Of a DNA stretch of 36,457 nt, positions 17,334 to 28,322 are shown piece after piece. Position 1 is the stretch's first letter, and each line of letters starts with the position of its first letter. A program made the position numbers and the translations under genes. Source of the stretch: Propionivibrio sp. (lineage in GTDB: Bacteria; Pseudomonadota; Gammaproteobacteria; Burkholderiales; Rhodocyclaceae); assembly GCA_029975435.1 (NCBI GenBank), contig JARKPC010000083.1, positions 1 to 36,457 on the forward strand. Direction: 5' to 3'. Below the pieces are notes generated by a model, which saw only the letters and a list, made by a program, of their open reading frames with translations, was not told where the DNA came from and made no database searches.

Positions 17334-18353
17334 GTGAGGCGAGAAGAGAGTTGGCTGCGACTTGGCACGGTGGCCGTACTGCTGGCGCTGGCGGGTTGCG
17401 GCGGACAGCCGGCACGCGTCCCTGACTCGGCTCCCGGTGCCGAACCGCTCACTCCCGGCGCTCCGTCGCGCAAACCGTCGCCCGTCGTGCAGAAACGCGG
17501 CGGCGGCTACTATAAGGACGACGGCCCGGCCGACGACATCCCCGACAACCTCGACGCGATCCCCGACGCGCAGCCGCGTCTGGAGCCATTGCACCGCTTC
17601 GCCAACAACCCATATGTCGTGCTCGGCAAGTCGTATGTGCCGAACACCACGCTCAAGCCAGTCCGGCAGCGCGGCATCGCCAGCTGGTACGGCAAGAAAT
17701 TCCATGGCCAGAAGACCTCGATCGGCGAACCCTACGACATGTTCGCCATGACGGCCGCACACCCGACCCTGGCCATTCCGTCCTACGTACGCGTGACCAA
17801 CGTCGGCAGCGGGAAATCGGTGGTCGTGCGCGTCACGGATCGCGGCCCCTTCCACGCCGACCGCATCATCGACCTCTCCTATGCTGCCGCGCATCGTCTC
17901 GGCTACGTCAACACCGGCAGCACGCTGGTTGAGGTCGAAGCCTTGCTGCCCACCGAGTCCACTTCGCCCCTCTACGCCGAAGCCCGTACGCCGGTATTGC
18001 CCGTGAGGCCGGTAGCCGCAAAGGCCGAACGCGACGAATTCGAACTGTTGATGAAGCAACTGGCAACGGACAACGGATCCATGGCGAAATCCCCAGAACC
18101 ATCGCCCGCCGCCGGCGAAACGAAAGGGCTGTTCCTTCAGCTTGGCGCCTTCTCCAGCGCGGACAACGCCGAAAGTCTGCGCTCACATCTGTCGCGCGAA
18201 CTGGAATGGCTGACCGAGGGAATCCAGATCCAGTCGGCGGGGAATATCCATCGCGTCCATCTCGGCCCTTACGCCACGCGCGCCGAGGCTGAAAAAGTGG
18301 CCGAGCGGATTCGTCTGGCGCTCGGTTACAAGCCGACTTTCGTTACGCGCTGA
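17334..18353 (+). CDS. rlpA: RlpA, septal-ring lytic transglycosylase lipoprotein with SPOR domain
   Basis: A 339-residue lipoprotein starting at a GTG with ribosome site GGAGCGAGGA. The signal peptide ends at the lipobox LAGC (Cys22). The double-psi beta-barrel domain, about residues 110-205, contains GIASWYGKKFHGQKT, the His of TAAHPTLAIPS and the Asp of VTDRGPFHADR, the residues implicated in catalysis in P. aeruginosa RlpA. The C-terminal SPOR domain (about 260-336, LQLGAFSSADNAE and VHLGPYATRAEAE) binds denuded glycan at the septum. Its 3' end overlaps the convergent hypF by 11 bases. Confidence 0.93.
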   Translation: MRREESWLRLGTVAVLLALAGCGGQPARVPDSAPGAEPLTPGAPSRKPSPVVQKRGGGYYKDDGPADDIPDNLDAIPDAQPRLEPLHRFANNPYVVLGKSYVPNTTLKPVRQRGIASWYGKKFHGQKTSIGEPYDMFAMTAAHPTLAIPSYVRVTNVGSGKSVVVRVTDRGPFHADRIIDLSYAAAHRLGYVNTGSTLVEVEALLPTESTSPLYAEARTPVLPVRPVAAKAERDEFELLMKQLATDNGSMAKSPEPSPAAGETKGLFLQLGAFSSADNAESLRSHLSRELEWLTEGIQIQSAGNIHRVHLGPYATRAEAEKVAERIRLALGYKPTFVTR

Positions 18354-20637
18354 TTCCCAGCAGATGGTGCTGGGCAATCCATGCCTGGCCGAGGGCGATG
18401 CCGCCGTCGTTGGGCGGGATGCGCCGCGCTTCGATCAGATGGAAGCCGGCGTCCGTCAGCCGGCTGCGCAGGCCACGCCCGAGGACCTGATTCTGCAAAC
18501 AGCCGCCTCCGGCGACCACCGCAGCCTCCGCGGGCGCTGCGGAAACCAGCCAGTCGGACAGCGCGGCGGCGAGCGTCGCGTGGAAAAGGGCGGCGCCATA
18601 CTGGGCATTCTTCTCGTCGGCCAACGCCGAGAACATCGGGAGCAGGTTGAGGCAGCCATTCTCGATCGTCCATCCGGCCGGTAGCGGAGCCACCTCGCCG
18701 TGACGCTCGGCCAGTCCTTCGAGCAGCAATCCCGCCTGACCCCGGAAGCGGGTTACGAAACAGATGCCGAGCAGCCCGGCGGCCGCGTCGAGCAGACGCC
18801 CCATGCTGGTCGTATTCAGTCCTCCGTAGCCGGAAGCCAGCCGTTCCGCGAGAACGCTCGCCTCTGACTGGTTTGCGAATCGCCGTACGATCTCATGGCC
18901 TCGCCCGAGGGCCTGCAGGACTGCCGCCGCCAGACGCCAGGGTTCGCCCGCTTCATGGTCGCCCTCGGTCAGCCGTAGCGGTGCCAGGTGCCCGAGGCGG
19001 GCGAAGTGCGCTCCTTCCACCCGCAGCAACTCCCCGCCCCAGGCATTGCCGTCATCGCCCATGCCGTAACCGTCGAGCGCCAGCGCATAAACCGGCTCGT
19101 CGCGATGATGTTCGGCGAGAACGGCCGCAACGTGCGCGTGATGATGCTGCACGCGGAGCGCGGGAACACCGCGCTGTGCGGCAATCATCATGGCCAGGCG
19201 GGAGGCCGGGCTTTCCGTGTCCAGATCGTGAGCGACCACGGCGGGCGCCACGTCCAGAACACGCAGCAGGTGATCCGCCACCTCCGCCATGGCATCGACG
19301 GCCGAGGAATCGGAAAGGTTGCCAAGGTGGGGAGAGAGAAACGCCTCGTTGCCGCGCGTAACGCATATCGTGCTCTTGTCGTGGGCGCCGAGGGCCAGAA
19401 TCGCCGGCGTCGCAAACGGCAACTTGACCGAACGCGGGGCATACCCCCGCGAACGCCGCACGAGCTGCAGGCCGCCGGGACCGGAACAGGCGATGCTGTC
19501 TTCCACGCCGGTGACCAACGTCAGGTCGTGCATCAGGAAGGCATCCGCCAATCCGGCGAGGCGATCCAGCGCTTCGTCATTGTCAATGACCGGAGGTTCT
19601 CCGCTCAGGTTGCCGCTGGTCACCGTCAACGCCAGTTCCTCGGCCCTGTCCAGCCACGCCGTGCCCTCGGGCCGCCCCGCTGCTTCGTGGAACAGCAGAT
19701 AATGCAGCGGTGAGACCGGAAGCATGACTCCCAGCCAACCCAGGTCAGGCGCCACGCCGGCAAGTGCCGCATCGCAGCGGCTGCGCTTGCGCAACAGGAT
19801 GATCGGTCGCTCCGGCAGGTTCAGCAGCCCCGGTTCGCCAACGCTGACGTGCACGACAGCCGTTGCCGAAAGCGCGTTGGCGAACATGACCGGGAACGGC
19901 CTGGCCGGCTGGCGCTTGCGCATCCGCAACAAGGCCACGGCTTCGACGTTGCGCGCATCGCAGACCAGTTGAAAACCGCCCGGCCCCTTGATCGCCAGGA
20001 TCTTCCCCGCCTTGAGCAATTGCACCGCACCGGCGATCGCATCGCCTTGGAATGCCGTACCGGTGGGATCGACAAGCGACAAGCGCGGACCGCATTTCGG
20101 GCAGCAAATGCCGGCGGTGTGCAGCCGCCGATCGTGCGGCCGCTGGAACTCGCCCTGGCACTTGCTGCAGGGAACGAAATCCTTGAAGGTGGTGCGCTCG
20201 CGGTCGAAGGGCAAGGTCTGGCAGACGGTGTAACGCGGCCCGCAATGCGCGCAGCTGGTAAAGGCGTAGCGCCAGCGCCGTCCCTTCGGATCGAACATGT
20301 CATGCAGGCAGTTGCGGCAGACCGCCGTGTCCGGACCGATCATCGTGGACGCCCGCCCGCCGAGACTGTCGAGAATGGCAAAGTCCTCGGTTGCGCCGTT
20401 CGCCTCGACCGGACGTCGATGCACGGAATCGATGCGCGAAAAAGGCGGGGCCTCCTTTTGCAGCCGGTCTACCAGCAGATCAATCTTCTGGTCCTGGCCG
20501 CGAACCTCGATTTCCAGGCCCTTGGCGTCGGTACGCACCCAGCCGGTCAGACGGAGCTCCTTGGCCAGGCGCCACACCAGAGGGCGGAAGCCAACGCCCT
20601 GGACGACACCTGTCAGGCGAATGCGGTGACAGAGCAC
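18343..20637 (-). CDS. hypF: carbamoyltransferase HypF ([NiFe]-hydrogenase maturation)
   Basis: A 764-residue HypF that makes the thiocarbamate on HypE from carbamoyl phosphate, the source of cyanide ligands of [NiFe] hydrogenases. Domains in order: acylphosphatase (VVQGVGFRPLVWRL), two zinc fingers (CRNCLHDMFD, CAHCGPRYT, CSKCQGEF, CPKCGPRL), the YrdC-like domain (LAIKGPGGFQLVCDA), and the Kae1-like domain with HHHAHVAAVLAEH. The start is probably the GTG at 20637; an ATG at 20757 would add an atypical 40-residue leader. Neither start has a strong ribosome site. No other hyp or hydrogenase structural gene is in the window, so the genes it serves must be elsewhere. Confidence 0.93.
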   Translation of the reverse strand: MLCHRIRLTGVVQGVGFRPLVWRLAKELRLTGWVRTDAKGLEIEVRGQDQKIDLLVDRLQKEAPPFSRIDSVHRRPVEANGATEDFAILDSLGGRASTMIGPDTAVCRNCLHDMFDPKGRRWRYAFTSCAHCGPRYTVCQTLPFDRERTTFKDFVPCSKCQGEFQRPHDRRLHTAGICCPKCGPRLSLVDPTGTAFQGDAIAGAVQLLKAGKILAIKGPGGFQLVCDARNVEAVALLRMRKRQPARPFPVMFANALSATAVVHVSVGEPGLLNLPERPIILLRKRSRCDAALAGVAPDLGWLGVMLPVSPLHYLLFHEAAGRPEGTAWLDRAEELALTVTSGNLSGEPPVIDNDEALDRLAGLADAFLMHDLTLVTGVEDSIACSGPGGLQLVRRSRGYAPRSVKLPFATPAILALGAHDKSTICVTRGNEAFLSPHLGNLSDSSAVDAMAEVADHLLRVLDVAPAVVAHDLDTESPASRLAMMIAAQRGVPALRVQHHHAHVAAVLAEHHRDEPVYALALDGYGMGDDGNAWGGELLRVEGAHFARLGHLAPLRLTEGDHEAGEPWRLAAAVLQALGRGHEIVRRFANQSEASVLAERLASGYGGLNTTSMGRLLDAAAGLLGICFVTRFRGQAGLLLEGLAERHGEVAPLPAGWTIENGCLNLLPMFSALADEKNAQYGAALFHATLAAALSDWLVSAAPAEAAVVAGGGCLQNQVLGRGLRSRLTDAGFHLIEARRIPPNDGGIALGQAWIAQHHLLGISA

Positions 20638-20818
20638 ATTGCTTTGGGTTTCGTAAGTCGGCACAGGATTTTTCGGTCGGATTGATCGGCGCGGTTTTTT
20701 TGCAGGGGCGGATTCTAGCGCATGACGTTGGCGAGGTGAATCCGTGATATCCCTCATACGACACCCCGGTGCCACTTGCCAGCGGCGATTTCGTTCTGCG
20801 CAGACGGAACCAATGACC

Positions 20819-20851
20819 AAAAAAAACGGCCACGGTTCATGCCGGGGCCGT
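20819..20851 (-). terminator. intrinsic terminator of the cytochrome operon
   Basis: On the minus strand ACGGCC pairs with GGCCGT (20846-20851 with 20826-20831), with an inner CGG/CCG pairing around a TTCATG-type loop, followed by eight T residues (20826-20819). It lies 20 bases after the stop of the monoheme cytochrome gene and separates the operon from hypF. Confidence 0.85.
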
Positions 20852-20870
20852 CTGTCGGAAAACAGCGCGC

Positions 20871-21212
20871 TTACTTCAACGACAGTATCCACTGGATCAT
20901 GTTGGTCACTTCGGCCTTGTCCTTGGTCTTGATGACCTTGTGCTCCTCCTCGGTGCCGTCCTCGAGCTTGACCTTCTGGCCGGTGGTAATCTGGGCCAGG
21001 ATCTTGGTTTCGCCGTCCGGCTTGCCGGCATACTTCTTGGCCACCTCCTTCAACGAGATGGCGTCCTTCTTCTTATCCACGGCATGGCACTTCAGGCAGC
21101 CTTCCTTCTTGGCCAAGGCTTCAGCGGCTGCCGCATCGGCGGCCTGGGCAACGGGAACGCCGAGAACGGCGGCCATGAGGCCGGTGGTGGCAAGTATCAG
21201 GGGTGTTTTCAT
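20871..21212 (-). CDS. small periplasmic monoheme cytochrome c
   Basis: A 113-residue class I-type cytochrome with a signal peptide (MKTPLILATTGLMAAV, cleavage after AQA), one heme site CLKCH at about residues 39-43, and a distal region with TGQKV and helices ending IQWILSLK. There is a strong ribosome site AAGGAG 7 bases before the ATG. It would shuttle electrons in the periplasm, comparable in position and size to MtoD in Sideroxydans. It is the last gene of the five-gene cytochrome operon; the sixth-ligand Met is not certain. Confidence 0.88.
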   Translation of the reverse strand: MKTPLILATTGLMAAVLGVPVAQAADAAAAEALAKKEGCLKCHAVDKKKDAISLKEVAKKYAGKPDGETKILAQITTGQKVKLEDGTEEEHKVIKTKDKAEVTNMIQWILSLK

Positions 21213-21260
21213 GTGGAATCTCCTTGGGGTCAGGGATAAGTTGGACAGCGCAGGAACGCC

Positions 21261-21875
21261 TCAGTGCTCGTGCCAGCCGGTGATCATCATCTTGAACATC
21301 TGCCCGACCGTCTTGCCGGTGGTGCCGAGGTAGATGTGCGAGAGCAGGAAGAGCAGGAGAGCCACCGCCGCCAGGTAGTGCGTCAGGGCGACCGGCAGCA
21401 GGCCGTCGAAACCGAACAGCGTGTCGGGCGCGAACTCGGGGTACAGGTAGATCAGGCCGCTGACCAGGATGACCGGCAACAGCAGGTACATCACGCTCCA
21501 GTACGTCACCGCCTGCAGGGCGTTGAAGTGCTCTTCCTTGCTCGGTTCGTGCGGGTGCGGTTCGCCGCGGAAGACGCCGATGCCGTACCACATGGCCTGC
21601 TTGATGATCCGTTGCAGGATGCCGGGAGGCTTCGGCACGAATTGCCACCAGTTGCCGGTGACGATGTTGGCGATGACGAAGAACAGGTAGGCGCCGATGA
21701 GCAGGACGCCGGCGGTGTTGTGGATGCGCACGGCGAGGGCAAAGTTGACCAGCGGCAAGGCCGGGTCGGCAAAGTGCACGCTCAGGCCGGTGACGCCGAG
21801 GGTGACGATGAGGGCGGCGTTGGTCCAGTGCCAGATGCGGATCCACAGGGCAACGAGGTATTCGCGCTCAGCCAT
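21261..21875 (-). CDS. b-type di-heme membrane cytochrome (cytochrome b561 / HydC-like)
   Basis: A 204-residue integral membrane protein with four helices and the His pattern of the PF01292 family: WIRIWHWTNAALI, AVRIHNTAGVLL, and LTHYLAAVALLLFLLSHIYL. Such subunits hold two b hemes and exchange electrons with quinone. The start MAEREYLV has GGAGAG 5 bases upstream; the earlier ATG at 21905 would overlap the preceding gene more deeply. It overlaps the heptaheme cytochrome gene by 8 bases, so the two are probably translated together and form one complex. It could be mistaken for a hydrogenase b subunit, but no hydrogenase genes are adjacent. Confidence 0.85.
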   Translation of the reverse strand: MAEREYLVALWIRIWHWTNAALIVTLGVTGLSVHFADPALPLVNFALAVRIHNTAGVLLIGAYLFFVIANIVTGNWWQFVPKPPGILQRIIKQAMWYGIGVFRGEPHPHEPSKEEHFNALQAVTYWSVMYLLLPVILVSGLIYLYPEFAPDTLFGFDGLLPVALTHYLAAVALLLFLLSHIYLGTTGKTVGQMFKMMITGWHEH

Positions 21876-22881
21876 GGTGCTCTCCGTTCTTGCCGTCGTC
21901 GGCATCGTGCTGCTGAGCTTCCTTCGAACGCCTGCCGCGGGTCAGGAAGCGGCCGAGGCCGTGGGCCAGCAGGCCGAGGAGCATGGCGGCGAAGGCACCG
22001 AGAACGAGGGTGTCGAGCAGGGGGTGGCGGGTGGCGCCCGGGACGTAGGAGGTGGCCAGGATGACGCTGTTGGCAAAGCCGAGGCGTTGCTGTTCTTCCT
22101 TGACGAGGTGGCGGTAGAGCCGGGTCTTCAGGGCACTGCTGGCGCTGTGGCAGGTGAGGCAGTCTTTTTCGGCCTTGTCCTTGGCGAGGATCTGGTGCGA
22201 GAGCATCTCGCCGGCAGCGACTTCGGGGGTGTGGCATTCGACGCAGCGGACGGCTTTCCAGTGCAGGCGCGTGTTGGGCAGCCAGGCGTGGATGTCGTCG
22301 ATGGGCGGGCGGGTCTTCTTTTCCGGGGCGAACTTGGCGAACTGCTCGTCGGAGTCGTGGCAGCCGAGGCAGACGCGGTTGTCCTGGGCGACGATGCGCG
22401 CGGGGTCGCTCTGCTTGTCGGCGATACGCATCAGGTGCGGGTTGTGGCAGGTGGGGCAGGTGATCTTGTCGGCCAGCTCGGCATGCACCGACTTTTCGAA
22501 CTGGGCTTCGATCAGGGTGGCTTTCTTGGAGTGGCAGTCGGTGCAGGTGCTGGTCGATTCCCTGGCGTCGGCCGCATGCGGGTGCTCGTCATAGCCTTCG
22601 TTGTGGCACTTGGTGCACAACAGCTTCTGGTGGTCGGACTGATAGAAGGTTTCGGGGTGCTGCAACAGCCCGCGCAGTTTCCGGAGATCGAGGCCTTCCT
22701 TCGGCGGGGCCTTCAATCCTTCCGCGGAGTGGCAGGAAAAACACTCGGCGTTGGCCGCGCGCTGCTTCTGTTGCTGCTCGGGGGTGAGCGGGCGCTCCTG
22801 CGCCATCACAGCGGGAGCAATCGCCGCGGCAAGCATCAGCCACCCGAATGCGGCGAAATTTCTGACAAAAGAAAGTGGCAT
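21868..22881 (-). CDS. membrane-anchored heptaheme c-type cytochrome
   Basis: A 337-residue protein with a signal peptide (FGWLMLAAAIAPAVMA), seven CXXCH sites in order (CFSCH, CTKCH, CTDCH, CPTCH, CLGCH, CVECH, CLTCH), and one C-terminal membrane helix (TLVLGAFAAMLLGLLAHGL) followed by a basic/His-rich cytoplasmic tail. It is not a NapC/CymA-type protein: those are four-heme and N-terminally anchored. The paired membrane cytochrome b immediately downstream suggests a quinone-linked complex similar in idea to the Geobacter CbcL fusion, but with the c- and b-parts as separate chains. The ATG at 22881 follows GGGAGAGG closely; a GTG at 22914 is an alternative. Confidence 0.88.
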   Translation of the reverse strand: MPLSFVRNFAAFGWLMLAAAIAPAVMAQERPLTPEQQQKQRAANAECFSCHSAEGLKAPPKEGLDLRKLRGLLQHPETFYQSDHQKLLCTKCHNEGYDEHPHAADARESTSTCTDCHSKKATLIEAQFEKSVHAELADKITCPTCHNPHLMRIADKQSDPARIVAQDNRVCLGCHDSDEQFAKFAPEKKTRPPIDDIHAWLPNTRLHWKAVRCVECHTPEVAAGEMLSHQILAKDKAEKDCLTCHSASSALKTRLYRHLVKEEQQRLGFANSVILATSYVPGATRHPLLDTLVLGAFAAMLLGLLAHGLGRFLTRGRRSKEAQQHDADDGKNGEHHG

Positions 22882-22960
22882 CGCCTCTCCCAATTCCTCC
22901 GGAAGCTCAATCACTTAAAGGGCTGCCGACCTGCTCCAACCGACGGGGCGACTATACAGT

Positions 22961-25126
22961 TTATTGGAATCTGTAGATATAGCGAACCCCGACAAAGGTG
23001 TTGTTCTGCGTTTGGTCGGCGGTCACCGTGGTCCCGTCCTGCACGTTGACGTTTGCGCTGGGCGAACAACCGGTGCAGGTAATGTTGCCGCTGTAATAGG
23101 CAAACGGTGAACCGTTGGCGAAGTTCCACGTCCAGTCGTTCGACTTCCAACGCTCATGGATGAGATCGAAGCGAACCTCCGAACTCTTGTCCACGATGTA
23201 TTTCCCATCCAGTTTCAGGCGCAGCAACTTGTTCTTGACATCGGCGACCGGCCCGGTCGTGCCAGTCACATAGTTGGCTCCAGATCCGGAGAGAATCAAC
23301 TCCTGCGGATAGCTGCTGGTGTTTCTGAACCAATCGAAGCCGGCACCGACTTCGACTTTGGGGTTCAGCTTGCCACGCAGGTTGAGCCCGAAGGAATCAC
23401 CGACGTCCTTGAGCCGGGTGTCCTTCACCGCATTGGCCGCTCCGGTACCCGAAGCCCGGTAGCTCACGTCGCGCGCCTCGGTGACGTCGTAGGAATACCA
23501 GGCCGACAGCACCCAGTCTTCCGAAAACGCATAGCTTCCGTCGACGGCATAGACTTCCGAACTGCCATCGCGCAGACCGTAGGGGCGACCATCCTGTGGA
23601 TACTTGTCGCGCGCACTATCGACACGGAACTGCAGCGACATGCTCTCCACAGGTTCCCAATCGAAAGCCATGCGCCACTTGTCCCTGCTGCGGTCGGCAA
23701 TGTGCATTGGGTTGATCTGGTTTGACCAAGGATTCGTGCCATTCGCCGCTTGATACGACGAGCCATCTCGTTCGCTATGCAGGAAAGCAAGCGATCCGTT
23801 CAGGTTATCGGCCAACGAACGCTTCATCTGAACCTTGTACGTGGTCTCGCTGACGTTTGTCCGGTAGGGCACATAAACCGTGCCGAGATTTGGGCTGGAG
23901 CGGTCCTGATCCGAGTACTCCAATCCTCCGGTGAGGCTGAAATTGAGCGGCAGGCGGTAGGTTGCTTCGAGCTTGCCGGAAGTGGTGGTATACGAATGCG
24001 GCGTGTTGTACACGGTGGCCACGCCCGTGGTGTTGTTGCCGACGAATCCTCTGACCGGCGTCTTGTCGTTAACATCGTAATAGCGCAGGCTGCCTGTTAT
24101 GGACAGCTTGGGCATGGGCCGGGAACTCAGCCCCAACTGTACCAGCGTGGTGTCGATGCGCCCGTTGAGACTCGACGGCGCATTGACAAACGGCGCATTG
24201 GCGCCGGTCAATCCATAGGATGGCAGATTCTCATCCTGGGTCGCTCTCGTGTAGGCGAGCTTGAAGGTACCGCGAGTGGTCGGCGTAAATGCGTATCCAC
24301 CATCCACAAACGCCTGATGCGCCTGGTTGCTGAGCGGTTGCGACATTGGGGTGACGGAATTGAAGCTGGCACTGGTGCCACCGGTCACACCGTTCAGCCG
24401 CTCAAGCACAAGATTTTCGTGGTTGTCGTACCAACTCCCATAATAACCACCCGACAGCTGCAATTTCGCATCTGTGTACTGCAGGACGGCTTCCAGTTGC
24501 CGCGTCGTGCTGTCGATCGGTTCCACCGAGAATAGTGCGGCACTTCCCCAGCCCGACTGACGCGTTCCCGTCTTTTCTTCGTTCTTGAAGTCGAGCTTCA
24601 GCTCAAGACCGGGAGCCAGGCTCTTGAAGCCCCCCAATCGCGTCAACTCACGCGTGGTTCCGAGTTCGACTTCGCGTTTGGCGAACGACCCCAATCCCGT
24701 TCCTACCGTCAGATTCGACGAGCCGATCCCCTGCAACCCGGTGTTGAAAGTGTACGGATTGTCCCGAGTCGATCTGTTGTACTCGATGAAACCGCCAAAA
24801 TCGCCCTGGCGGATGTAGTCGCCTCGAATTTCCCGGGCACCATCCAGCCCAAGATCGGTCGCCCTGAGTTTCAGCCAGGTGCCTGTCGAGTCATCGCGTT
24901 TGTTGATATCGGCATCGAACAGACCGTACGCTCCGCTATCCCGCATGCCATCGTAAATGCCTTGCTGATGACGATCACCCGACCAGTTGCCGATGCCTAC
25001 CGAAATCGAGCTATCCGGTTTCGTCAGCCCCGCGACGTCAGGATCTTCCGCAAAGGCCGGCCCGAATCCCATCATCAGTGCTGCCGGCAACCCGGCCAGC
25101 CTGAACGAACATTTAAGTGTTCTCAT
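22961..25126 (-). CDS. MtrB/PioB/MtoB-family outer-membrane beta-barrel
   Basis: A 721-residue protein with a signal peptide ending AFA, then repeated amphipathic beta strands with aromatic ends along the whole length, finishing VRYIYRFQ. The N-terminal part (SISVGIGNWSGD, GDFGGFIEYNRS) is typical of decaheme-associated outer-membrane proteins of the MtrB/PioB family, which sheathe a periplasmic MtrA/DmsE-type decaheme cytochrome and let it cross the outer membrane. The family is about 650-750 residues. The N-terminal CXXC of Shewanella MtrB is not present; the only cysteines in the mature chain are the CTGC pair near residue 690. The ATG has a strong ribosome site (GAGGAGGGGG). It follows the decaheme gene by 24 bases. 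Confidence 0.9.
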   Translation of the reverse strand: MRTLKCSFRLAGLPAALMMGFGPAFAEDPDVAGLTKPDSSISVGIGNWSGDRHQQGIYDGMRDSGAYGLFDADINKRDDSTGTWLKLRATDLGLDGAREIRGDYIRQGDFGGFIEYNRSTRDNPYTFNTGLQGIGSSNLTVGTGLGSFAKREVELGTTRELTRLGGFKSLAPGLELKLDFKNEEKTGTRQSGWGSAALFSVEPIDSTTRQLEAVLQYTDAKLQLSGGYYGSWYDNHENLVLERLNGVTGGTSASFNSVTPMSQPLSNQAHQAFVDGGYAFTPTTRGTFKLAYTRATQDENLPSYGLTGANAPFVNAPSSLNGRIDTTLVQLGLSSRPMPKLSITGSLRYYDVNDKTPVRGFVGNNTTGVATVYNTPHSYTTTSGKLEATYRLPLNFSLTGGLEYSDQDRSSPNLGTVYVPYRTNVSETTYKVQMKRSLADNLNGSLAFLHSERDGSSYQAANGTNPWSNQINPMHIADRSRDKWRMAFDWEPVESMSLQFRVDSARDKYPQDGRPYGLRDGSSEVYAVDGSYAFSEDWVLSAWYSYDVTEARDVSYRASGTGAANAVKDTRLKDVGDSFGLNLRGKLNPKVEVGAGFDWFRNTSSYPQELILSGSGANYVTGTTGPVADVKNKLLRLKLDGKYIVDKSSEVRFDLIHERWKSNDWTWNFANGSPFAYYSGNITCTGCSPSANVNVQDGTTVTADQTQNNTFVGVRYIYRFQ

Positions 25127-25150
25127 GACCCCCTCCTCTCGTCCCCTCGG

Positions 25151-26107
25151 TCAGCGGCGGAAGCGCCCGGCGGTTGCACTATTCACCGTGCTGTTGCCAC
25201 CATGGATGTTCGTGTGGCAATTCATGCACGCCCGCCCGACCGTCCCCGTCAGGGAAGTACTGTTGCTCGCGGCATTCGGCAGGGCCATCGCCTGGCCCGG
25301 GTGGCTGTCATGCGAGTGGCATTCCTGGCAAAGAACAGGAGCGCGCGCCTTGAGCAGGCCTGCGACGTTCGTGCCGTGCGGCTGGTGGCAGATCCCGCAG
25401 TCTTCCGACACCGGCTGATGGTTATGGACGAACGGACCGCGTTTCTCCATGTGGCAGGTGTAGCAGGTGTCGTTCGTGCTGGCCTTGACGAGTTGCTTGG
25501 GATTGTCCCCGTGGACGTTGTGGCAAGACGAGCAGGTCATCTTGCCTTCGACAATCGGATGGTGCGACGGCTTGTTGACCTGTGCGCGCTGCTCCTTGTG
25601 GCACGTGAAGCAGACTTCAGGCTGGGTCCGCTTGGCCATCACCTTGTCGTTCCGGGAATGAACCTGATGGCAGGAAGTGCAGGCGACATCCTGCGAACCG
25701 TGCGAGCTGGTCTCCCAGGCGATGCGGTTGCCGCCCTGATGGCAGCCGGTGCACGCCATGTTGCGTTCCTCCGCGGGTGTCTTGGTCTTTTTGCGGAAAT
25801 CGCGGTCGGTCAGCGGCGGCGTTCCCCCGCCGCGGTACTTGAGGTGCTTCTCGCTCTCGCCGTGGCAATCGATGCACGTCGGGGTTCGGCCATCGGCTCG
25901 CGTTCCATGCTTCGTCTTACCGATCGACAGGACCGACGGATGCAGTTCGAGCATGGTCGGCGCAGCGTCATCGACTTCGTCGTGGCAGCCGGTGCATTTC
26001 GCGTCGCCCTTGAGTACCAGATCCTCGGCTGCCAAGCACGCGCCAGACCACGATACGGCGGCAGCCAGCCAGGCTGCCAGAACCAACAACCGTCGGATAC
26101 CCTTCAT
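25151..26107 (-). CDS. DmsE/MtrA/MtoA-family decaheme c-type cytochrome
   Basis: A 318-residue periplasmic cytochrome with a signal peptide (RRLLVLAAWLAAAVSWSGA) and ten heme sites: CTGCH, CIDCH, CTGCH, CTSCH, CFTCH, CSSCH, CYTCH, CGICH, CQECH and CMNCH. Number, spacing and length match the MtrA/MtoA/PioA/DmsE group. In Shewanella, MtrA with MtrB carries electrons outward to metals; in Sideroxydans, MtoA-MtoB is proposed to carry electrons inward from Fe(II). The ATG at 26107 has GGGGGAG 5 bases upstream. It is the first gene of the operon, 123 bases from the end of an IS element. Confidence 0.93.
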   Translation of the reverse strand: MKGIRRLLVLAAWLAAAVSWSGACLAAEDLVLKGDAKCTGCHDEVDDAAPTMLELHPSVLSIGKTKHGTRADGRTPTCIDCHGESEKHLKYRGGGTPPLTDRDFRKKTKTPAEERNMACTGCHQGGNRIAWETSSHGSQDVACTSCHQVHSRNDKVMAKRTQPEVCFTCHKEQRAQVNKPSHHPIVEGKMTCSSCHNVHGDNPKQLVKASTNDTCYTCHMEKRGPFVHNHQPVSEDCGICHQPHGTNVAGLLKARAPVLCQECHSHDSHPGQAMALPNAASNSTSLTGTVGRACMNCHTNIHGGNSTVNSATAGRFRR

Positions 26108-26488: not shown

Positions 26489-27604
26489 CTATGCGTGTGC
26501 GATTGGCGGTGGCACTGTCTGACCGATCGCCCAAACGAATCCTGCCAGTTCTCTCGCAATTGCTGTGGTAACTTGCACCTTGAGTTTTCCTCGTGACTGT
26601 AGCAACTGATAACGGCCGCACATGCGCTTTTGTGCTTTCCACGCGATCTCCTGGACAGCCTCCGAGGTCCGTTCGGCTCGGCGCTGTAGTGTCACTGTCT
26701 TGCGCGCGGGATAACGGTAGCTCCACGCGGCCTCGACCAAGACGCGCCGTACATGGCCATTGCCAGTCTTGGTGATGCTGCCGCGGGATTTACTGCTGCC
26801 ACTGGAGTGTTCGCTGGGCACGACGCCAAGATAGGCCATCAGTTGTGGGGCACTGGCGAAGCGTCTGAGGTCACCGATTTCAGCTACGATTGTCGTCGCC
26901 GTGATCAAACTGATGCCACGCAACGCCATCAGACCTTCGATTACCGGCCAGAACACCGATTCGGCGGCAGAACCTTGGATCTGCTGGTCCAACGAATCAA
27001 TACGTCGGTTCATCGCCTTCACGGTGTCGAGGTATTCCTGGAAGACGATCTGCTGTAACGGTTGATCGAATTTCGTCTGCTCCAACCAGCGGTAGTGTTT
27101 TTGCGTCCAGTTGTCTTGACCGCCGTAGCGCTTACCATGTCGCAGCAAGAAGGCCAGCAAACGTTGCTTAGCTTGTTTCTGTAGATGCTTCATATCTTCC
27201 CGTGCCCGCATCAAATCGCGCAGCGCTTCTTGCGCGCCGTCAGGGACCCAGACGGCAGTCAGTTCGCCGGCCCGGTGCAGGCGTGCCAGAGCCAGACTAT
27301 CGCGCCGGTCCGTCTTGACCCGATCCCCCGCTTTCTTCGGAATCAGCGACGGTGCGACGACCAGACACTCCCAACCCAGATCCCGTAACTGCCGATGGAT
27401 TCCGTATCCACAGGGGCCGGCTTCATAACAGAACGACAAGTTCGCGCCACCTTTCCGCAGTTGCCTGATTAATTTCTCCAAGGCTTCCGGGGTATTGGCA
27501 ACTTCGCCAACGTAGCGAACCTCGCCACCATTGCCTTCGGCCACCGACACCGCAATCGTTTCTTTATGAACATCCAGCCCAACGTACTTGTTAAACTCAT
27601 TCAT
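26489..27604 (-). CDS. IS110-family DEDD transposase/recombinase
   Basis: A 371-residue transposase. The RuvC-like DEDD tetrad is readable: Asp11 (GLDVHKE), Glu61 (CYEAGPCG), Asp99 and Asp102 (KTDRRDSLALARL). The C-terminal Tnp domain carries the serine-rich segment SSGSSKSRGSITKTGNG that contains the catalytic Ser of this family, preceded by the helix-hairpin-helix-like LRGISLITATTIVAEIG. Full length, with no frameshift, so it is probably active. The start MNEFNKYVGLD is preferred over the upstream codon at 27619 because it matches the family N-terminus. Confidence 0.94.
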   Translation of the reverse strand: MNEFNKYVGLDVHKETIAVSVAEGNGGEVRYVGEVANTPEALEKLIRQLRKGGANLSFCYEAGPCGYGIHRQLRDLGWECLVVAPSLIPKKAGDRVKTDRRDSLALARLHRAGELTAVWVPDGAQEALRDLMRAREDMKHLQKQAKQRLLAFLLRHGKRYGGQDNWTQKHYRWLEQTKFDQPLQQIVFQEYLDTVKAMNRRIDSLDQQIQGSAAESVFWPVIEGLMALRGISLITATTIVAEIGDLRRFASAPQLMAYLGVVPSEHSSGSSKSRGSITKTGNGHVRRVLVEAAWSYRYPARKTVTLQRRAERTSEAVQEIAWKAQKRMCGRYQLLQSRGKLKVQVTTAIARELAGFVWAIGQTVPPPIAHA

Positions 27605-27647
27605 GGCCTGCCCCCTCAATTTCGGCTCTGCGCCTCAGGTTGAAAAG

Positions 27648-27675
27648 CCTCAAGCGTAATCCGCGCTGCTTGAGG
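27648..27675. other. 8-bp hairpin in the transposase-proximal end of the IS
   Basis: CCTCAAGC (27648-27655) pairs with GCTTGAGG (27668-27675) around a 12-base loop, in the short non-coding stretch upstream of the transposase. It may take part in end recognition or in shielding the transposase start. Confidence 0.45.
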
Positions 27676-27680
27676 TGCGG

Positions 27681-27693
27681 CAGGTCAATACAT
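27681..27693. repeat. terminal inverted repeat of the IS element (transposase-proximal end)
   Basis: CAGGTCAATACAT is the exact reverse complement of 26231-26243. Confidence 0.8.
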
Positions 27694-28322
27694 GATGTCT
27701 ATCGCTAAAGCCGGATGAATACATGCAAGTGGTCGGCCTCAACGTCGAGGAATCGGACGCGGTTCTGGCCGCCCTGCTGGGCGATCCGGGAATGCTGGAC
27801 CGGGTTCGTCGCTCGGTTCGCGAACGGCTCGCCGGCTCGGTGGCCTACCCCCTCAAGCGAGGAGCGATGGAATTGCTGACCGTGCTTCGGGAGCAAGGCG
27901 TTCCTTGCGCCGTAGCCTCCTCCTCGTCGGCACGGGAGATCGAGGAACGCCTGACGCGTGTCGGCGTACTGCACTTTTTCGAGACGATCGCCGGCGGCGA
28001 TGAGGTCGACCGCGGCAAGCCCGACCCGGCGGTTTACCAGCTGGCCGCCGCGCGTCTGGGCGTCTCTCCGATCCAGTGCCTGGCGTTCGAGGACAGCCCG
28101 CACGGCGTGGCTTCCGCTTCGGCCGCCGGCACCACGGTAGTGCTCGTTCCGGATCTGCAGGAGGCAACACCGGAGCTGGGAAGGTCGGTTTCGCTGGTAC
28201 TCGCCTCGCTCACCGACGCCGTGCCACGAGTCTCCGGCTGGTTCGGGTCGCGTTCGGATTCCTTGCGGTCGGCGTCGAGGGGCACGCGCGCATCATGGCC
28301 GAATCGGGCCGGCACTCGATAA
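27694..28322 (+). pseudogene. HAD-family hydrolase (beta-phosphoglucomutase-like), 5' part lost at the IS
   Basis: The frame reads from the IS boundary through LKPDEYMQVVGLNVEESDA and keeps the cap domain end, motif II (CAVASSSSAREIEERL), motif III Lys (GKPDPAVYQLAAARLGV) and motif IV (CLAFEDSPHGVASASAAG). The N-terminal motif I (DxDG, nucleophile Asp) and the first 40 to 45 residues are missing, so the product cannot be catalytic. The ATG at 27723 permits a 199-residue fragment but without motif I. The left flank of the IS does not supply the missing 5' part. The C-terminal 35 residues after AVPRVS are unlike the family and may be a second frameshifted end. Its stop faces gltA. Confidence 0.85.

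Follow-up and report, generated by a model that had tools for sequence, protein, structure and literature searches.

In the mtoABCD operons of Dechloromonas aromatica and Gallionella capsiferriformans, the genes for the MtoAB conduit and the monoheme cytochrome MtoD are accompanied by mtoC, the product of which is reported to be a one-chain homolog of CbcL (PMC6295460, PMC5566968). Genes for MtoC and MtoD have also been described next to mtrCAB in a group dominated by Betaproteobacteria (PMC8805035). Another set was described from a metagenome-assembled genome (MAG) of Zoogloea, which was enriched 720-fold on an anode and encodes an MtrB/PioB barrel, a DmsE-like decaheme cytochrome, a b-type cytochrome and two c-type cytochromes, one of them with seven CXXCH motifs; three of the five are presented there as lacking characterised homologs (PMC8258643). 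Here we describe five genes of the same kinds from a draft genome of Propionivibrio sp. (GCA_029975435.1), located on the minus strand at positions 20819 to 26107 of contig JARKPC010000083.1, the whole 36,457 nucleotides of which are referred to as the window. Judged from the genes, they likely encode a trans-envelope conduit of the MtrAB/MtoAB kind in which the quinone reaction at the inner membrane would be carried out by a two-chain complex of a heptaheme cytochrome and a cytochrome b, a cassette that would have been exchanged among respiratory operons.

The run starts with an MtrA/MtoA-type decaheme cytochrome of 318 amino acids with 10 CXXCH motifs (25151..26107), assigned by its place in a tree, by TIGR03508 (255.6 bits, cut-off 192.2) and by a match (E 5.1e-61) to PDB entry 6r2q, which we take to be the MtrA structure. 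The outer-membrane barrel of the MtrB/MtoB/PioB type (22961..25126; 721 amino acids) follows after 24 bp and exceeded the cut-offs of both TIGR03509 (326.8 bits, cut-off 240.05) and PF11854 (E 2.5e-136). After a further 79 bp comes the heptaheme cytochrome (21868..22881, with a possible alternative GTG start at 22914), a protein of 337 amino acids recognised by its seven CXXCH motifs and, in the model, its C-terminal membrane helix. Its gene overlaps by 8 bp with that of a four-helix cytochrome b of the FdnI/b561 type (21261..21875; 204 amino acids; PF01292 over the cut-off, E 1.9e-22), which is followed after 48 bp by a monoheme cytochrome c with a single CXXCH motif (20871..21212; 113 amino acids). 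An intrinsic terminator on the same strand (20819..20853), consisting of a hairpin and a U8 tract, was missed by a consensus terminator scan; its folding energy was -21.7 kcal/mol over a 59-nt stretch (z -2.4), and 4 of 200 shuffled sequences folded equally well. The coordinates, heme counts and short gaps thus agree with the original prediction of an operon-like run of five genes in this order with a terminator at its end. By their genes, the decaheme and the barrel are predicted to form a porin-cytochrome conduit of the MtrAB/MtoAB/PioAB kind, as had been proposed.

The monoheme cytochrome passed the PF00034 cut-off and matched PDB entry 4xxl, presumably MtoD, with an E-value of 2.4e-26. By this match, the homology behind the proposed MtoD role holds, but the role itself has been revised: in Sideroxydans ES-1, MtoD is reported to have interacted with neither MtoA nor ImoA, whereas PmcA did, and in Shewanella MtoD is described as able to pass electrons from CymA to MtrA (PMC13390432).

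All 48 heptahemes that were aligned contain seven CXXCH motifs and seven invariant histidines outside these motifs and the membrane helix (H84, H102, H133, H149, H198, H207, H229), which would be enough for seven bis-His hemes; H307 in the membrane helix is also invariant. In the cytochromes b (45 sequences), H16, H52, H166 and H180 are invariant and align with H18, H57, H155 and H169 of Escherichia coli FdnI, which we take to be its heme ligands. The FdnI segment YNAGQ, which presumably lines the quinone pocket, aligns with FNALQ, of which F117, N118 and Q121 are invariant. The model of the cytochrome b (pLDDT 89) has four membrane helices, and its best match among solved folds was FdnI (1kqf_C; E 7.6e-4, TM 0.69). 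With these predicted helices and histidines at the four heme positions, the protein is, as far as sequence and model go, a cytochrome b of the FdnI/HydC type. A G...H...R motif near the C-terminus was found in all 17 heptahemes of set A1, in 43 of the 48 heptahemes of set A7 and in six of eight octahemes that likewise precede a cytochrome b. None of eight fused proteins contained it in the last 60 residues, where it is not expected because the b part comes after the heme part. By analogy with the anchor helix of FdnH, which we assume to pack on FdnI, the C-terminal helix of the heptaheme may pack on the cytochrome b.

The fused proteins used for comparison were taken from genomes of the same family as the window and regarded as MtoC on account of their gene order and composition, in place of the D. 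aromatica and G. capsiferriformans proteins themselves. To them the cytochrome b profile showed little resemblance (hhalign probability 12%, E 0.0024), and no fused protein matched the profile (model A2) at 1e-4, whereas the cytochromes b that are paired with octahemes scored 122-144 bits (nine loci). The N-terminal heme region of the heptaheme aligned with MtoC over hemes 1-4 with an hhalign probability of 98% (E 2.7e-13), values that are inflated by the common CXXCH motifs. A simple split of MtoC was rejected: on these comparisons the pair is probably not just a cut MtoC, and its FdnI-like cytochrome b is nearer to the octaheme-paired ones. Against this correction count the likeness of the heme region to MtoC and the fact that one fused protein also reached PF01292 (34.4 bits, cut-off 30.1) and therefore shares a superfamily with the cytochrome b. 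The locus thus resembles mtoABCD in combining MtoAB, an MtoD-like monoheme and a multiheme with an FdnI-like cytochrome b, but differs in that MtoC is a single chain, whereas here there are two overlapping genes and a cytochrome b apparently of another branch. Geobacter CbcL, which to our knowledge has no MtrAB partner, differs likewise in being one chain, with nine CXXCH motifs. The resemblance to CbcL lies in its published description as a multiheme c part joined to a HydC/FdnI-like cytochrome b (PMC6295460). Of the idea of a two-chain CbcL, then, the division of multiheme and b parts over two chains is retained, and a close kinship of the cytochrome b with the fused proteins is not.

The same genome also encodes a second multiheme/cytochrome b pair (L163, G000:C229:1949-4247; genomes, contigs and loci are numbered with G, C and L), in which an octaheme of the tetrathionate reductase family (TIGR04315, 645 bits) is followed in an overlapping frame by a PF01292 cytochrome b. 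The two kinds of pair have in common the C-terminal helix and the cytochrome b that follows, as well as, in most members, the G...H...R motif; they differ in the heme part, which in the window scored only 21.8 bits with TIGR04315 (cut-off 375), and membership of the heptaheme in the octaheme tetrathionate reductase family was rejected. A natural fusion of heptaheme and cytochrome b in L103 was likewise dismissed, the C-terminus of the heptaheme being in another frame, which was taken for a frameshift. Four stop-to-stop frames of 481-605 amino acids that resembled fusions (L153-L156) proved to be cytochrome b genes, with the octaheme encoded by a separate gene next to them. At two further loci (L051, L052), a nonaheme cytochrome precedes a cytochrome b, with 26-31% identity to the heptaheme pair, and these are perhaps a further variant.

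The window is contig C190 of draft genome G000 (4.39 Mb, 292 contigs), and absences from this genome are provisional because it is only 81.9% complete. Its barrel gene is the sole PF11854 match in the genome. The profile search for the OmcA/MtrC surface decaheme (TIGR03507) gave no match anywhere in the draft, which sets the system apart from MtrCAB. No match to the tetraheme domain of NapC/CymA (PF03264) was obtained for the five operon proteins, and the single NapC/NirT-type protein of the genome is encoded on another contig beside open reading frames (ORFs) read as NapH and NapB. A CymA/NapC system was accordingly rejected for the operon, which differs in this respect from conduits that combine MtoAB and a monoheme with such a quinone protein. 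The original prediction, that MtrC and CymA genes are missing nearby and that the heptaheme and cytochrome b stand in place of CymA, is supported by these absences, the protein families and the gene order, the place being that of CymA or MtoC. Among menaquinone genes, no menD over the cut-off and no PF02621 match were found in the draft, which makes ubiquinone or rhodoquinone likelier; the quinone of the host is thus probably not menaquinone. The closest named record was 'Candidatus Accumulibacter' UBA704, with 96% DNA identity across a 3.3-kb contig.

We searched 199 genomes of the family for the heptaheme (strong matches at E under 1e-70) and for MtrB (PF11854 at E 0.001). The heptaheme was found in 41 of the 199 genomes at E 0.001 and strongly in 18, and MtrB in 65, in 63 of which it exceeded the PF11854 cut-off. 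MtrB was present in 15 of the 18 genomes with a strong heptaheme (Fisher p 5e-6), and in 12 of the 18 the two genes lie within about 8 kb of each other in several gene orders. The cytochrome b of the clade (>360 bits) was recovered from 17 genomes, all of them heptaheme genomes, while the next score was 146 bits; the 18th heptaheme genome (G171, assigned to the same genus as the window) has a cytochrome b fragment at a contig edge. That genome also contains two heptaheme gene fragments (L036 and L037, on contigs C91 and C41), each at a contig start, and thus perhaps two cassettes. The five-gene order, a search for which had been suggested, was recovered in full from four of the 18 genomes (G000, G099, G043, G011) and was interrupted by a contig end in G171. 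Other arrangements were found as well. Three genomes (G094, G190, G133) have the order heptaheme, cytochrome b, monoheme, decaheme, barrel. In G074, the trio of heptaheme, cytochrome b and monoheme is followed by a kinase and regulator and then by decaheme and barrel, and in G007, G154 and G072 the trio and the decaheme/barrel block are convergent. A gene with ten CXXCH motifs precedes the decaheme in G154 (L039) and G072 (L044); the latter scored as OmcA/MtrC type (TIGR03507, 453 bits), and the former was classed from its place and heme count alone.

The gene settings of the pair were compared at named loci, the best 80 of 193, of which the 61 close ones (L053-L113) were counted and the 19 distant ones (L114-L132) left out; many of the 61 are close kin (12 are named Zoogloea) and hence not independent. 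In 22 of them the pair adjoins MtrAB, and in 24 others the cytochrome b gene is directly followed by one for an ethylbenzene-dehydrogenase-like heme b protein (EB_dh; PF09459 in the query), while both settings together were never seen (0/61). The monoheme gene accompanies 20 of the 22 MtrAB loci, and in the other two (L054, L058) the contig ends at or before its place, whereas none of the 24 EB_dh loci has it next to the pair. Four of the latter (L082, L084, L088, L090) continue with ArrA-like and ArrB-like genes; with 1024 and 1035 bits, the two ArrA-like proteins that were scored fell short of the cut-off for ArrA (1600), so that these are relatives, not proven arsenate reductases. Locus L055 is intermediate, with a kinase, regulator, the pair, monoheme, another EB_dh protein and hypF; its stretch contains no MtrAB. 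The remaining 15 loci include several short contigs and a third setting (L101, L102, L107), in which a 4Fe-4S protein and a TorD-like gene (PF02613 in L102) lie just upstream. The EB_dh proteins that follow the cytochrome b, for example L080:10633-11688, may act as carrier in a respiratory system of their own; the one after the monoheme gene at L055:10951-12282 is longer. Within the family, many relatives of MtrAB lie in clusters of monoheme, decaheme and barrel. At 30 other MtrAB loci, chosen by us for comparison, the fetched stretches contained a NapC-type protein in seven, the fused kind in eight, an MtrC-type protein in five (one also with NapC) and none of these in 11.

Two trees were made by quick searches with SH-aLRT support only and with some long branches flagged, the score and length cut-offs having been fixed before rows were entered. 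Thirteen copies of named loci and L037 were dropped from the trees, and the cassette tree also excludes cut or broken rows (L053, L075, L092, L093, L097, L103, L112, L113) and two loci with no cytochrome b row (L058, L110). In the cassette tree (heptaheme and cytochrome b, 56 rows), a single clade of 29 rows (SH-aLRT 98) contains all 24 MtrAB-linked rows and, besides these, L064 and L084 from the EB_dh setting, L071, and the monoheme-only loci L033 and L055. In the decaheme tree (57 rows), by contrast, the 26 cassette-linked decahemes are spread over five groups, with six label changes, of which the starred branches force five. One clear case of exchange between conduits, as read from these trees, is provided by the fourteen Zoogloea-type cassettes, which form one clade (100) while their decahemes belong to two groups, of five and nine. 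The nearest unlinked relatives of the window decaheme by score were L149 (G105), then L140, L152, L151, L147, L166 and L146. Except at L149, a protein of about 660-750 amino acids with eight CXXCH motifs and a membrane part is encoded beside the barrel, so that the cassette seems to occupy the place that fused MtoC has in most of these relatives, and an exchange of MtoC for the cassette would be the simplest reading. There is, in our estimate, an even chance that heptaheme and cytochrome b make up a quinone cassette that is general and exchangeable, that its third gene (MtoD-type monoheme or EB_dh) marks whether the partner is MtrAB or not, and that it was joined to different MtrAB conduits several times, perhaps five, within one clade.

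The published Zoogloea cluster has the same gene content as the window, and all 12 Zoogloea-named loci (L062, L065, L067-L070, L072-L074, L077, L078, L092) carry these five genes. Their order is, however, heptaheme, cytochrome b, monoheme, decaheme, barrel, whereas the window starts with decaheme and barrel, and their MtrA belongs to another group of the decaheme tree. In the literature searched, mostly screened at listing level, we found no further report in which a heptaheme and a cytochrome b accompany MtrAB. The locus is thus a known kind of conduit with a distinct inner-membrane variant; the claim of a distinct architecture holds for that variant but not for the five-gene set, which had already been published for Zoogloea (PMC8258643). 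New here is the finding that the quinone module is a cassette that occurs linked to different conduits.

From these patterns we infer that the pair forms a complex, what its heme content and quinone site are, and the order of carriers, direction and substrate of the conduit. Quinol would be oxidised at the cytochrome b subunit, with two hemes b as in FdnI, and electrons would pass to the heptaheme, the C-terminal helix of which would lie against the cytochrome b. Either the MtoD-like monoheme or the heptaheme itself would then reduce the decaheme within the outer-membrane barrel, and from there electrons would reach an extracellular acceptor, along a path that is reversible in principle. Several observations weigh against this assignment. 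The heptaheme is missing from 50 of the 65 genomes with MtrB. No MtrB match was obtained for three of the 18 heptaheme genomes, and in G105, of the same genus, the trio and MtrAB are on different contigs; together with the EB_dh setting, these last two results mean that the conduit is not the only system that the cassette serves. The label changes in the decaheme tree may be losses or gains, and its unlinked rows were chosen by us. The single-chain model of the heptaheme reached a pTM of only 0.66, with a weak stretch at about 240-290, and its best match among PDB folds had an E-value of 0.26. A quinone other than menaquinone would make low-potential metal reduction harder and favour high-potential partners or electron uptake. 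Finally, a transposase gene upstream might cut the operon from its promoter.

These points bear differently on the alternatives. That the trio is a quinol dehydrogenase of its own for a periplasmic reductase and merely adjoins mtrAB seems unlikely. The frequency of the pair in EB_dh loci, some with ArrA/ArrB-like genes, is what such an enzyme would predict; yet linkage to MtrAB recurs across five decaheme groups of the tree and takes several gene orders, the MtrAB and EB_dh settings exclude each other, and the monoheme goes with MtrAB. Inward flow is harder to set aside and is a real, if lesser, possibility: as in Mto-type uptake, electrons from Fe(II) or an electrode would enter through MtoAB and reach ubiquinone by way of the monoheme and the heptaheme/cytochrome b. 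The lack of a TIGR03507 match in the draft and the many family clusters of monoheme, decaheme and barrel are in line with uptake, as is the lack of menD and PF02621 matches, for ES-1 is likewise reported to have no menaquinone genes (PMC13390432). The ten-CXXCH genes before the decaheme in two cassette clusters speak against it, and outward flow is somewhat more likely than inward, given the enrichment on an anode of a Zoogloea that carries the same five kinds of gene (PMC8258643).

The upstream gene encodes an IS110-type transposase (26489..27619, minus strand), and the right end of the element is near 27701. Contig C213 (G000:C213:1-5000, L180) starts with 139 bp identical to window positions 27563-27701 and then encodes a response regulator with 79% identity to that of L036, together with a sensor kinase (58%); a kinase of this kind also lies near the cluster in L054, L055, L056, L057, L058 and L063. 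The true order is therefore probably kinase, regulator, IS110, operon, with the element separating the operon from its regulators. This arrangement would also fit an operon that is silent or decaying here, split by IS110 from its kinase, regulator and promoter. We consider that quite improbable: none of the five frames is disrupted, the decaheme and its counterpart in the Propionivibrio MAG (L058) are 82% identical, and an insertion sequence (IS) element can also supply a promoter.

If a two-chain quinone module does serve the conduit, it would add to the wide differences among systems in how extracellular electron-transfer paths are linked to the quinone pool. A module beside CymA and MtoC, as in Zoogloea, Uliginosibacterium and relatives of Propionivibrio, could explain conduits that seemingly have no inner-membrane partner. 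Its pairing with different MtrAB conduits makes modularity testable by gene exchange, and if the cassette is general, a swap of the inner-membrane module could give or remove extracellular electron transfer.

To the right of about 27701, the window contains genes for a HAD hydrolase and citrate synthase, which may be joined to the rest through another copy of the IS element. Directly downstream of the operon and on the same strand lies hypF (18343-20892), which likewise comes after the trio in L053; in L055 a single gene separates the two.

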